A stretch of DNA of 64,000 nt, from positions 1,007,501 through 1,071,500 of the forward strand of contig NZ_AP028679.1 in assembly GCF_037076455.1 (NCBI RefSeq). The letters are read 5' to 3'. The position numbers and the translations under genes are program-made. The DNA is from Desulfoferula mesophila. GTDB taxonomy: Bacteria > Desulfobacterota > Desulfarculia > Desulfarculales > Desulfarculaceae. The notes below the pieces were generated by a model, which searched no databases, was not told where the DNA came from, and saw only the letters and a program-made list of their open reading frames with translations. Below are positions 19,049 through 32,774 of the stretch, one piece after another (within the stretch, counting starts at the first letter, position 1; every line of letters starts with the position of its first letter).

Positions 19049-19475
19049 GCTACCTCCCTTGCTTGTCGTGGCCTTTCAGGCCATTACCAGACCTGGACGC
19101 GCCGGAATCCGCCCGCCAACGGCAGACCCCCAACCCTTGCGGCCAACCCGCCTCAACCATGCGACCACCTTTGGCCCCAACGGCACTCAATCGGCAGCCG
19201 TACTTTATAGTTCTTGGGATATAAGCAAGTTACGTGCCGACAGCCCCTCGGAATTCCGAGTGGGCCAACTTGCCATAATTACATAGTATTTGGGGGGATT
19301 TCTTGGGCAGGGGTGGTCGACTCCCCTGGTAAATATCACCGGCGGTGGAAAGGTTTTTGCCAGACGCCCTAACAACTTGCCTGGCCGTTACGGCCGCGGC
19401 CTTCATAAAATCCCGGCAGAGGGTAAAATAGGCTAAACCCCTTGGTTCGATCCATCGCCCACCGGGAGCAAACCC
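19049..19475. promoter_or_regulatory. Divergent intergenic region
   Basis: These 427 bases lie between the leftward binding-protein gene and the rightward VOC gene and should hold both promoters; the stretch near 19200-19300 is the most AT-rich. No gene was found. Confidence 0.4.
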
Positions 19476-28210: not shown

Positions 28211-28747
28211 ATTCCACCTTGCGGCGCTCTTGGGAAGCCGTCTTGAAACAAGCGAGGATAACTAACGTGCGGGTAGGCCGATTATAGGCAACGGTGGTGG
28301 TGATGTCAAGGCCAACTCAGCATAATGGCTATGCATTTTCCAATTGGCCCCCACCCGGCTCAAAGGGCGAAGCGCGCCCGGGGCCCGGCGGCCGGGGCCA
28401 AAAAAACCCCCGGCCTTTACGGCCGGGGGGGTGTGTGGAGGAGGGAGTAGTCGCCGGCTGTGAGGAGGGGTGCCGGTTGCCCCTAATATAAGCAAAGCCT
28501 TTGCCAACCGGGGCGTCATGGAAAACTTTTTTGATTTTTGATTATATATTAAGTGGTTGCCCGCTGAAACCCTGTTTGGCCCCCGTCGCGAGTAAGCCGC
28601 GGGGCCTACCAATAGGTACAAAAATCCAGTCGTAAGTTACAAATTGGTAGGAAATTCCGCGCCCCCTATTAAGGGTGTTTACAAAAAAGTCCCAACAATG
28701 CGGGCGCTTATGCCTAATTTGCGCCATGAGCGCCGAAGGCACGTAAC
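28211..28747. promoter_or_regulatory. Divergent region with an isolated terminator-like hairpin
   Basis: About 540 bases separate the leftward ligase gene from the rightward regulator. At 28407-28429 CCCCCGGCC and GGCCGGGGG pair perfectly; read leftward the stem is followed by seven T (28400-28406 read as A on the plus strand), i.e. a terminator on the ligase strand about 190 bases upstream of its start with no gene to terminate. It could be an attenuator in a long leader. The stretch 28540-28690 is AT-rich and a likely promoter zone. Confidence 0.5.
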
Positions 28748-30157
28748 TTGCTAGAACAAATAACCATGATGACTATGCCTTCCCAACAGGAATGCCAGGC
28801 CGTGTTGGACATGGCCAGTTTGGTGGAAAAAGCCCTTGATCTGGAGTCGGTTCTGGAGGGGATTCTCCTGCGTCTGGACCAGGCCCTGGATCTGCGGGGA
28901 GCCCGTTTTTGGTTGTGGGAGGCGGGAGACGCTCCTTGGGTGGCCACCGGTTTGGGCCAGGACCATGACCTGGGCCCGGACGCGGTAAACCAAAGTTTGG
29001 TCATCGGCGCGCCGCTGTTGCCCCTTGGCCGCGAGTCGGGCCGCCTGGTGGCCGCCCTGCGCGACAACGAGCCCGACCAAATCAGCGCCCGCAGGCTGGT
29101 AAACGCGGCGGCCCAACTGGCCAGCTCGGTCTTGGCCCTGCACCGCGATTTGTCCCTGCGCCGCCACACCGGGGAGAACGCGGCCGAACTGGACCCCACG
29201 GCCACCCATCTTTTCCTGGCGGGCCAGAGCGAGGCCATGGTGCGGGCCCAGGAGCTGATCAGCAAGGCGGCCCCCAGCGAGGCCACGGTGTTGTTGTTGG
29301 GGCCCCTGGGGGTGGGCAAGGCCCTGGCCGCCCAGGTGGTGCATCGCCTCAGCCAGCGCCGGGAAGGGCCGCTGTTGCACCTGGATTGCGCGGCCTGGGG
29401 GCCGGCGGAGCTGGAGCGCAGGCTGTTCGGGCGTCCGACCGGCTCTGGCTCCAGCGCGGACAGCCTTTTGGAGCAAGCCACCGGGGGCACCTTGTATCTG
29501 CAAGAGGTGGGCAGCCTGAGCCTGCCCCTGCAGGCCAAGCTGTTGCAGGTTTTGCAAGAGGGCGAATACGAGCCGGCGGGCGGCGGGGACATACGCCACG
29601 CCCAGGTGCGGGTGGTGGCTTCTTCCACCAAAGACCTGGAGCGCAACGTGGCCCAGGGCTCCTTCCGCCAAGATCTTTTCTATCGCCTGGGGGTGATGCC
29701 CATTCATCTGCCTCCGCTCAGACAACGGCGCGAAGACGTCAGCCTGCTGGCAGAATATTTCCTGGGCCGCAACCGCGAGCAACAGGCCCCGCACCTCAAC
29801 CCGCAGGCCCAGAGCGTGCTCACCCACTACGCCTGGCCCGGTAACGTGGCCGAGTTGGAGAACCTCTGCGGCCGCCTGGCCCTGTTGACCAACGCCCCGG
29901 AGATCGGCCTGGACGATCTGCCGTCCTTCCTGTTCTACCGGGAGGCCGCCGGTTCCCAGGAGCAGCAGCTTTCGCGTCTGGAAGAGATAGAAAGGCAGGA
30001 AGTGGTGGCCGCGCTGGAGCGCAACAACTGGGTGCAATCCCACGCCGCCGCCGAGCTGGGCCTCACGCTGCGCCAAATAGGCTACCGGGTAAAGAAATTC
30101 GGCCTGGAGGGAGCCATAAAAAAAGGCCGCAGCCGGGCCCAGAGCGCCACTCTCTAA
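28748..30157 (+). CDS. NifA/NorR-like regulator: GAF, degenerate AAA+, Fis-type HTH
   Basis: A 469-residue protein with the architecture of NifA/NorR activators. Residues 15-140 resemble a GAF domain. Residues about 158-390 are the AAA+ region, and 425-455 a Fis-type helix-turn-helix (AAAELGLTLRQIGYRVKKFGL). The AAA+ part is abnormal: Walker A is GPLGVGKA at 185-192; the loop that should read GAFTGA is GSGSSA at 232-237 and the insert is shortened; Walker B reads LYLQE at 249-253, with Gln for the Mg-binding Asp. It is therefore unlikely to open sigma-54 promoters in the normal way. It lies 220 bases upstream of hcp, the likely target. Confidence 0.85.
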   Translation: MLEQITMMTMPSQQECQAVLDMASLVEKALDLESVLEGILLRLDQALDLRGARFWLWEAGDAPWVATGLGQDHDLGPDAVNQSLVIGAPLLPLGRESGRLVAALRDNEPDQISARRLVNAAAQLASSVLALHRDLSLRRHTGENAAELDPTATHLFLAGQSEAMVRAQELISKAAPSEATVLLLGPLGVGKALAAQVVHRLSQRREGPLLHLDCAAWGPAELERRLFGRPTGSGSSADSLLEQATGGTLYLQEVGSLSLPLQAKLLQVLQEGEYEPAGGGDIRHAQVRVVASSTKDLERNVAQGSFRQDLFYRLGVMPIHLPPLRQRREDVSLLAEYFLGRNREQQAPHLNPQAQSVLTHYAWPGNVAELENLCGRLALLTNAPEIGLDDLPSFLFYREAAGSQEQQLSRLEEIERQEVVAALERNNWVQSHAAAELGLTLRQIGYRVKKFGLEGAIKKGRSRAQSATL

Positions 30158-30243: not shown

Positions 30244-30284
30244 TTGACTCTGGCCAAATAAAAGGTATTTTAGTACCTAAATAC
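30244..30284 (+). promoter_or_regulatory. Candidate hcp promoter with overlapping palindrome
   Basis: TTGACT at 30244-30249 and TATTTT at 30266-30271 have a 16-base spacer and look like a sigma-70 promoter. An imperfect 20-bp palindrome, GTATTTTAGTACCTAAATAC (30265-30284), matches its reverse complement at 16 of 20 positions and overlaps the -10 box, as a repressor operator would. The hcp start codon is about 95 bases further down. Confidence 0.55.
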
Positions 30285-30379: not shown

Positions 30380-32023
30380 ATGGATATGTTCTGTTATCAA
30401 TGCGAGCAAACCGCCAAGGGCCAGGGCTGCACCATCCAAGGCGTCTGCGGCAAGCCCCCCGAGGTGGCCGCTCTGCAGGATCTGCTGACCTACGCCCTCA
30501 AGGGCTTGGCCGTCGTGGCGGCCGAGGCGGGCAAGCAGGGCACCGTAGACCGGGAGGTGGGGCGCTTTGCCTCGCGCGCCCTTTTCTCCACCTTGACCAA
30601 CGTGGACTTCGACCCCCAGCGCTTTCCGCCCATGATCACCAAGGCGGTGGAGTTGCGCGAGGAGCTCAAGGCCAAGCTGCCCGGCGTGGCCTTCCCCCAG
30701 GATGCCGCCAATTTCCAGCCCGGCGAGAGCCTGGAGGTCATGGTGGAGCAGGCCAAGGACTACCCCCTGGCTCCGGCGGAAGGTGAGCGGGCCGACATCA
30801 TCGCGCTGCAGCACACCACCCTGTTCGGCCTGCGGGGCCTGGCCGCCTATGCCGACCACGCGGCCATCCTGGGCCAGGAGGACGACGCGGTCTACGCCTA
30901 CATCTACGAGGCCCTGGCGGCCATGGTAAACGACGAGCTGGACCTGAACGGCTGGGTGGGCATGACCCTCAAGTGCGGCGAGGTGAACCTCAAGGCCATG
31001 GAGCTGTTGGACGCCGGCAACACCGGCACCTACGGCCACCCCGAGCCCACGGCCGTGCCCCTGGGCCACAAGGCGGGCAAGGCCATTCTGGTAAGCGGCC
31101 ACGATCTGATGGATCTGGAGCTGCTCTTGGAGCAGAGCAAGGATAAGGGCATCTACGTGTACACCCACGGCGAAATGCTGCCCACCCACGCCTATCCCAA
31201 GCTCAAGGCCTATGAGCACTTCTACGGCCACTACGGCACCGCCTGGCAAAACCAGGGCAAGGAATTCCCCGAGTTCCCCGGGGCCATCCTCATGACCACC
31301 AACTGCATCCAAAAGCCCAAGGGCGACACCACCGAGAAGATCTTCACCACCGGCCTGGTGGGCTGGCCCGGCGTGCCCCATATCGCCGGTCAGGGACGCG
31401 ACAAGGATTTCTCCCCGGTCATCGACAAGGCCCTGGAGCTGCCCGGCTTCCCCAGCGACGAGGACAAGGGCAGCGTGTTGTGCGGCTTTGGGCGCAACGC
31501 GGTGATGGGCGTGGCCGACAAGGTCATCGAGGCCGTCAAGGGCGGCGCCATCAAGCACTTCTTCCTGGTGGCCGGTTGCGACGGGGCCAAGCCCGGGCGC
31601 AACTACTACACCGAGTTCGTGGAGAAGACCCCGGCCGACACCGTGGTGCTCACTCTGGCCTGCGGCAAGTTCCGCTTCTTTGACAAGCAACTGGGCGACA
31701 TCGGCGGCATACCCCGCCTTTTGGACGTGGGCCAGTGCAACGACGCCTACAGCGCCATCCAGATCGCGGTGGCCCTGGCGGGCGCCTTCGGCGTGGGGGT
31801 CAACGATCTGCCCCTTTCCATGGTGCTCTCCTGGTACGAGCAAAAGGCCTGCGCCATCCTGCTCACTCTGTTGCACCTGGGTATCAAGGACATCCGCCTG
31901 GGCCCCAGCCTGCCCGCGTTCATCACCCCCAACGTGCTCCAGGTGCTGGTGGACAACTTCAACATCATGCCCATCACCACCCCGGACGAGGACCTCAAGG
32001 CCATCCTGGGCGAGGCTGCCTAA
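30380..32023 (+). CDS. hcp: Hybrid-cluster protein (hydroxylamine/NO reductase), class I
   Basis: A 547-residue Hcp. The ATG at 30380 behind GGAGGAGAG is preferred over the TTG at 30365. The N-terminal cysteines Cys5, Cys8, Cys17 and Cys23 (CYQCEQTAKGQGCTIQGVC) bind the cubane cluster in the spacing of anaerobe class I proteins. Hybrid-cluster ligands are in VAGCDGAKPGRNYYTE, TLACGKFRF, VGQCNDAYSAIQI and SWYEQKACAIL. The protein reduces nitric oxide or hydroxylamine and is linked to nitrosative stress in sulfate reducers. Regulated probably by the NifA-like protein upstream; monocistronic, followed by two hairpins. Confidence 0.96.
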   Translation: MDMFCYQCEQTAKGQGCTIQGVCGKPPEVAALQDLLTYALKGLAVVAAEAGKQGTVDREVGRFASRALFSTLTNVDFDPQRFPPMITKAVELREELKAKLPGVAFPQDAANFQPGESLEVMVEQAKDYPLAPAEGERADIIALQHTTLFGLRGLAAYADHAAILGQEDDAVYAYIYEALAAMVNDELDLNGWVGMTLKCGEVNLKAMELLDAGNTGTYGHPEPTAVPLGHKAGKAILVSGHDLMDLELLLEQSKDKGIYVYTHGEMLPTHAYPKLKAYEHFYGHYGTAWQNQGKEFPEFPGAILMTTNCIQKPKGDTTEKIFTTGLVGWPGVPHIAGQGRDKDFSPVIDKALELPGFPSDEDKGSVLCGFGRNAVMGVADKVIEAVKGGAIKHFFLVAGCDGAKPGRNYYTEFVEKTPADTVVLTLACGKFRFFDKQLGDIGGIPRLLDVGQCNDAYSAIQIAVALAGAFGVGVNDLPLSMVLSWYEQKACAILLTLLHLGIKDIRLGPSLPAFITPNVLQVLVDNFNIMPITTPDEDLKAILGEAA

Positions 32024-32180: not shown

Positions 32181-32774
32181 CTAAGGCTTGTCGCCGTTGA
32201 ACAGGTGGTAGGCGGCCAGCACCTGGCGGGCCACCTGCACCAGCTTTTGGTTGCTGCGCCGCGCGTGCTGCTGCAGGCGGCGCAGGGCCTCGGGCTCGCC
32301 GAGCCCCAGGTTGAGGATCAAAAGGTTCTTGGCCTTTTCGATGATCTCGCGCTCGCTCAGCCTGGTCTCCAGCTCCTGGGTCTGCTCCAGGAGCTCGCGC
32401 AGGCGCGCCTGCAGGGCCCCGGCCGCGGCCAGTTGCAGGCGCGACTGGGAGCGATCCTGGGAGGGCGTGATAAGGGCCAGGGCCCCGCAGGCGGCGGCCA
32501 ACTCGGCCAGGCCCTTCATTCCCGCGGGCGCGGCCAACACCACCCCCACCTCCTCGGCGGCTAATATTTTTTCCCAGGCCGCCAGCTGGGGCGGAGCAAA
32601 GCCGTGCAGGTCCCACAGGACCAGCATCTCCCCGGCGCTCACCAAGGGCGGCAGAGTCTGCGGCGGATCGGGGGACAACACTGCCACCTCGCAGCCAGCC
32701 AGGATGGGGGCCAGGCCGGCAGCCAGGGGCGAGTTCGGTTGTTGCACCAGGGCCACTTTTAATTGAGTCACCAC
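32181..32774 (-). CDS. ANTAR-domain RNA-binding antiterminator with pseudo-receiver
   Basis: A 197-residue protein resembling NasT/AmiR. The C-terminal ANTAR domain (about 135-195) shows LETRLSEREIIEKAKNLL and ALRRLQQHARRSNQKLVQVA, the three-helix bundle that binds paired hexaloop RNA hairpins and prevents termination. The N-terminal 125 residues have receiver-like hydrophobic spacing but the acidic pocket is poor (VLWDLHGF only), so phosphorylation is doubtful. A coiled coil links the parts. The start is one of two adjacent GTG codons (32774 or 32771) behind AAAGGAGG. It converges with hcp; its RNA target is not identified. Confidence 0.8.
   Translation of the reverse strand: MVTQLKVALVQQPNSPLAAGLAPILAGCEVAVLSPDPPQTLPPLVSAGEMLVLWDLHGFAPPQLAAWEKILAAEEVGVVLAAPAGMKGLAELAAACGALALITPSQDRSQSRLQLAAAGALQARLRELLEQTQELETRLSEREIIEKAKNLLILNLGLGEPEALRRLQQHARRSNQKLVQVARQVLAAYHLFNGDKP

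Follow-up and report, generated by a model that had tools for sequence, protein, structure and literature searches.

The gene that precedes hcp in the window (the whole 64,000-nt stretch of DNA analysed here) encodes a NifA paralogue whose motor motifs have been lost and whose remaining parts are under strong selection. We found NifA ancestry, repeated motif loss across a clade, purifying selection, a nifA-type promoter, and an operator shared between hcp and an Rrf2-family gene. The reading we favour, to which we give about an even chance, is that the gene arose long ago by duplication of nifA together with its promoter, and that its product would now be an ATPase-dead, sigma54-decoupled DNA-binding regulator that damps NifA-type activation. 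An earlier sequence-only reading of this DNA had overlooked the sigma54 promoter and enhancer of the regulator, the relationship to NifA that the tree shows, and the divergent candidate small RNA. Coordinates are positions within the window, except where marked 'genome' or given with a locus number such as L063.

The open reading frame at 28748-30157 (+), coding for a GAF-like domain, an AAA+ domain and a Fis-type HTH, is intact as that reading had stated, and its start required correction. The listed TTG start at 28748 falls within the conserved sigma54 -12 element of the regulator promoter, and the ATG at 28766 (MMTMPSQQ) aligns with the ATG of the orthologues; a second conserved ATG is at 28811. 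The start was therefore moved downstream, and is likely either 28766 or 28811. Since the sigma54 start site is expected near 28762, the leader would be very short. The protein combines the AAA+ fold of the PF00158 family with the Fis-type HTH, and its PF00158 score (156 bits) is the lowest among the 42 such proteins of the genome, the next being 196. We inspected 30 of the remaining 41, each of which has a GAFTGA-type loop as well as the Walker B Asp; among the 31 sigma54 activators thus inspected, the paralogue is the sole one lacking the motor motifs. Its best NCBIfam match is NifA (TIGR01817) at 270.3 bits, far below the curated cut-off of 528.85.

Table 1. Features of the regulator-hcp locus (window positions).
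Feature	Position	Strand	Remarks
Candidate sigma54-dependent small RNA, ~84 nt	28400..28483	-	hairpin, C-rich loop ACCCCUCCUCACA, linker CUACUCCCUCCU, intrinsic terminator
Divergent sigma54 promoter TGGCAAAGGCTTTGCT	28491..28506	-	conserved sigma54-like element
Enhancer, tandem TAC-N6-GTA sites CCTACCAATAGGTA + TTACAAATTGGTAGG	28604..28652		between two divergent sigma54 promoters
Sigma54 -24/-12 promoter of regulator gene AGGCACGTAACTTGCT	28737..28752	+	conserved in L011-L016, L090, L092, L101, L105
NifA-paralogue gene (GAF-like domain, AAA+, Fis-type HTH)	28766..30157	+	probable start ATG 28766; ATG aligned in L011-L013
N-terminal GAF-fold domain (residues about 7-135)	28784..29170	+	AlphaFold pTM 0.78; Foldseek
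AAA+ domain (PF00158 match)	29219..29707	+	Pfam
Walker A GPLGVGKA, Lys kept	29300..29323	+	motif alignment
GSGSSA replacing GAFTGA, 4 residues missing after	29441..29458	+	motif alignment
Walker B LYLQE (Asp to Gln)	29492..29506	+	motif alignment
Sensor-II position, Arg to Ala (WPGNVAEL)	29849..29851	+	common to all seven genus g1 copies
Fis-type HTH	29978..30100	+	HTH_8, 2.6e-12; near invariant across clade
Sigma70-type hcp promoter TTGACT-16-TATTTT	30244..30271	+	-35 conserved in L011-L013
Palindrome GGTATTTTAGTACC over hcp -10, probable Rrf2-type operator	30264..30277		conserved; also at Rrf2 gene promoter
hcp, hydroxylamine reductase / hybrid cluster protein	30380..32023	+	NF003658, 814.6 bits

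The AAA+ domain matched PF00158 with an E value of 6.7e-45, and the AAA lid is also present. Loop 1 reads GRPTGSGSSAD----SLLEQ, compared with GHAKGAFTGATEEKPGRFEE in the canonical NifA of the genome, and is four residues shorter. Both motif changes noted from the sequence, GSGSSA with a shortened insert in place of GAFTGA and LYLQE in place of the Walker B D-E pair (D to Q, E retained), were thus reproduced by alignment. Beyond these, the sensor-II Arg is replaced by Ala, the switch Asn by Asp (LDCAAW), and the sensor-I residues TN by ST, with the Walker A Lys and both R-finger Args retained. Four hallmarks of a functional sigma54 enhancer-binding protein (EBP), namely a GAFTGA-type loop 1, the Walker B D-E pair, the sensor-II Arg and the switch Asn, are therefore missing. 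The E108Q variant of PspF is defective in ATP hydrolysis and still carries out remodelling (PMC4132715); loss of Walker B alone is thus no proof of inactivity, and our verdict rests on loop 1 combined with several catalytic residues. From this combination we infer that the paralogue has neither ATPase activity nor sigma54 contact, in support of the earlier prediction that it cannot open sigma54 promoters.

Pfam recognised no GAF domain in the window protein. Foldseek with the AlphaFold model returned GAF matches that include Nlh1 of A. aeolicus and the NifA GAF domain 8jrc, and the modelled N-terminal domain is a GAF by fold. Pfam detected GAF in L015/L016 and in canonical NifA, with only a trace in L014, and the domain is absent from two relatives (L101/L105; the G012 and G013 copies). 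The description of this domain as well kept thus applies to the fold, but neither to the Pfam result nor to these two relatives. The same description of the DNA-binding domain applies throughout the clade, as the HTH stays near NNWVQSHAA.ELGLTLRQIGYR.KKFGL.

At least 13 genomes carry degenerate NifA-type copies, and every one of them belongs to the Desulfarculaceae. Seven are from the genus of the window (G000, G004, G006-G010) and six from a second genus (G012-G017), where a contig end interrupts the copy of G017. When 63 genomes of the class were searched with a profile (E 1e-115), no such copy turned up outside Desulfarculaceae. In a quick tree with few outgroups (14 rows of degenerate copies, 12 distinct; motif columns excluded; another GAF-EBP from the same genome as outgroup), the degenerate copies formed one clade with an SH-aLRT of 99, sister to NifA. 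By descent in this tree, the paralogue belongs to the NifA lineage. The known protein nearest to it there is NifA, of which its own genome has a copy (genome 1124010-1125197); NifA has the same GAF-AAA+-Fis HTH layout but also GAFTGA, the Walker B Asp and the sensor-II Arg. Canonical NifA was found in five genomes of the genus, with GAFTGA and D-E, and the identity of the paralogue to it is about 38-42%.

Loss of the sigma54 loop and/or the catalytic residues differs from copy to copy, by lineage. Eleven of 12 clade members are without a GAFTGA-type loop 1, and the Walker B pairs comprise QE, EE, TD, AE, DD, DG, ES, QA and QG. The Walker A Lys, retained in most copies, is replaced by Arg in L015/L016, and the R-fingers are retained in all. 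The most nearly intact copy, L014/G004, retains a GAFSGA loop, yet its D-E pair has become TD and its sensor-II Arg has become Ala. The idea of an isolated mutant among orthologues with intact GAFTGA thus fails. By the Nei-Gojobori method, the three closest copies gave dN/dS values of 0.08-0.12 and the next pair 0.17; the N-terminal, AAA+ and HTH parts had similar values, and canonical NifA pairs were comparable (0.10-0.20). These ratios are approximate because synonymous sites are fairly saturated (dS 0.45-0.83). Purifying selection of similar strength across the domains shows that even the inactive AAA+ domain is being maintained.

A sigma54 pattern search of the whole window gave no more matches than expected by chance, and the case for the sigma54 elements therefore rests on conservation rather than on the match. 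Two TAC-N6-GTA sites are located about 130 and 100 bp upstream of this sigma54 element. Two such sites occur at each of five loci, against a chance expectation of 0.01-0.04 per 140 bp, and in five genomes canonical nifA has one at an equal distance (about 130 bp upstream of -24), an architecture common to nifA and the paralogue. Similar sites of the form CTACCAWWTKGTA(G) are present between the glnK and glnA genes and upstream of two amtB genes; in G017 and G019 they precede a GAF-AAA+ gene resembling the protein at genome 1249423-1250343, though no degenerate NifA copy was found in G019. Since the enhancer is common to nifA, the paralogue, glnA/glnK and amtB, the paralogue probably belongs to a nitrogen-limitation regulon that includes nifA. 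Sites of the CTACCAWWTKGTAG type were located at L063 1501 (genome 1246331-1246494), L066 (3797848-3797890), L076 (1190844) and L075 (1126714), in the contexts of glnK-glnA, two amtB loci and the vicinity of the nif cluster, and probably represent a nitrogen regulator motif of Desulfarculaceae. NtrC was considered as the enhancer binder and rejected, as the genome has no NtrC equivalog above the cut-off; the preferred candidate is thus the GAF-EBP near glnA-amtB (genome 1249423-1250343), and that it binds TAC-N6-GTA is our guess. Neither the locus nor the nif cluster contains TGT-N10-ACA NifA-type sites, and no NifA binding motif could be derived. A 15-base exact match to the sigma54 element of the regulator (GGCACGTAACTTGCT) is present at 19224-19238 (-), upstream of a gene resembling a periplasmic amino-acid-type binding protein.

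In other delta-proteobacteria, hcp is under HcpR-type control. Here the promoter adjoining hcp is of sigma70 type, in agreement with the sequence-only reading, and its -10 is covered by GGTATTNTARTACC, for which one other convincing site exists in the genome, at the promoter of an Rrf2-family gene that is followed by a 4Fe-4S protein gene. The palindrome GGTATTNTRRTACC was located at 30264-30277, L052 1501-1514 and L141 7541-7554, and is probably an Rrf2 operator, which would define a small regulon of hcp and ferredoxin. The palindrome also occurs at the promoter of an Rrf2 gene (56-60% identity) that separates the NifA copy from hcp in G012, G013 and G015. Because hcp and Rrf2 promoters have this palindrome in common, we assigned the hcp promoter to Rrf2 and not to the NifA copy; hcp is most likely controlled by an Rrf2-type repressor. 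Control by the Rrf2-type NsrR is known elsewhere (PMC1274295), with hcp under an Rrf2-family palindrome there as here, but the site here is GGTATTNTRRTACC and the Rrf2 gene is elsewhere in the genome or, in sister genomes, between the NifA copy and hcp. The sequence-only reading had proposed a sigma54-independent regulator of hcp: loss of loop 1 with retention of the HTH upholds the sigma54 independence, whereas the Rrf2 palindrome speaks against the control of hcp. No sigma54 promoter immediately precedes hcp, but transcription from the sigma54 promoter of the regulator may read through into it, as no terminator was found in the 222-bp gap between the two genes. A gene for an ANTAR-domain protein (32181-32774, -), which might be a nitrogen-type antiterminator, is convergent with hcp in conserved synteny.

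Motor parts lost, DNA-binding and sensor domains kept, and a nitrogen switch retained suggest that the paralogue is probably a brake or modulator rather than an activator, most likely a DNA-binding, ATP-independent antagonist or repressor. Under nitrogen limitation, a responsive activator, probably the GAF-AAA+ protein, would switch on its targets, and nifA, the paralogue and the divergent small RNA would be induced together. The paralogue would either bind DNA via its NifA-like HTH or mix into NifA rings via the retained R-finger and Walker A surfaces, and in both cases damp NifA-type activation as a passive, non-hydrolysing antagonist or repressor, tuned by the GAF domain. hcp would be induced separately via the Rrf2-controlled sigma70 promoter and perhaps also by read-through. 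The DNA binding and the induction are likewise inferences; antagonism of NifA, based on kinship and co-regulation, is speculative.

A purely nif role leaves unexplained why hcp follows the NifA copy in 9 of 11 readable contexts, in two genera. This adjacency would suit a local sigma70-type repressor or activator of hcp whose GAF domain senses a nitrosative or redox signal, as would the sigma70-type hcp promoter and the known loop-less EBPs that act at sigma70 promoters (PMC10274813). We regard such a role as doubtful: the -10 palindrome is common to the Rrf2 gene promoter, sister genomes have Rrf2 directly before hcp, the hcp promoter is without TAC-N6-GTA, and in two genomes, G004 and G016, the NifA copy is present without adjoining hcp. 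Nor is the paralogue likely to remain a sigma54 co-activator, that is, an inactive subunit in rings with canonical NifA, which would supply the loops and ATPase, that alters target choice or signal input; the universal R-fingers, the Walker A Lys of most copies, the selection on the AAA+ domain and the promoter architecture common with nifA all fit that proposal, but an identity of about 40% and the missing Walker A Lys in L015/L016 do not.

A non-transcriptional role, for example as a GAF-sensor scaffold binding PII-type or other proteins, would fit the GAF fold retained by most of the clade; with the HTH as the best conserved part, and the G012 and G013 copies devoid of GAF, it appears very unlikely. 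Still less probable is a slowly decaying relict without selected function. Catalytic motifs have indeed been lost in several distinct ways, but frames are intact in all full-length copies, dN/dS is about 0.1, the HTH is near invariant, and the promoter is conserved across more than 50% protein divergence; the earlier statement that the gene is not simply decaying is borne out by this selection and by the clade-wide retention.

Loop-less EBPs are otherwise known as scattered cases, mostly NtrC. With loop 1 lost and the DNA-binding domain kept, the paralogue resembles the sigma54-independent loop-less EBPs, namely Rhodobacter capsulatus NtrC, Caulobacter NtrC and VpsR (PMC10274813), and is likely a sigma54-independent DNA-binding regulator. 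The two NtrCs, like the paralogue, have loop 1/GAFTGA deleted, an intact HTH and a link to nitrogen control, but are two-component NtrCs, whereas the paralogue belongs to the NifA side, has a GAF domain and has a degenerate ATPase site; both NtrCs still require nucleotide binding, and the Caulobacter protein also Walker A and B residues (PMC10274813). VpsR of Vibrio cholerae shares the EBP fold without GAFTGA and acts at sigma70 promoters with no need for ATP (PMC10274813), but is an activator of another clade with another signal input. We found no NifA-derived clade with a degenerate ATPase site in the open-licence literature. A whole NifA-derived clade in which catalytic and sigma54-contact residues have been lost repeatedly and to different degrees offers a natural series in which to study the role left to an EBP after motor loss. 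It also points to a possible internal NifA modulator in diazotrophs.

The divergent element has a sigma54-like promoter, a conserved non-coding body and a terminator, and is on these features a probable sigma54-dependent small RNA gene. Its body, which has no start codon, is 98% identical in L011 and L013, compared with 41-55% for the neighbouring spacers. Three relatives were folded, giving a hairpin, a C-rich linker and a terminator; the first hairpin has a compensatory change at one position of its stem, and the C-rich loops are anti-Shine-Dalgarno-like. Six genomes of the genus have the candidate at the same locus according to a covariance model (E 5e-24 to 3e-6), which gave only weak terminator-like matches elsewhere in the genome or family; Rfam had no significant family for it. 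Pairing with the hcp ribosome-binding site (-24.2 kcal/mol) was rejected as evidence because it lies within the background: 11 of 45 other starts in the window were equal or better, and 43 of 500 shuffles reached this value. Under the same enhancer as the regulator, this conserved candidate could be a putative post-transcriptional arm, and we tentatively entertain a dual brake, in which an ATPase-dead NifA antagonist, co-induced with NifA and with the sigma54-dependent small RNA, stands beside the NO-detoxifying Hcp. On the far side of the candidate, a perfect 12/12 sigma70 consensus promoter with a 17-bp spacer (28309-28281, -) lies upstream of an acyl-CoA ligase gene (28210-26531).
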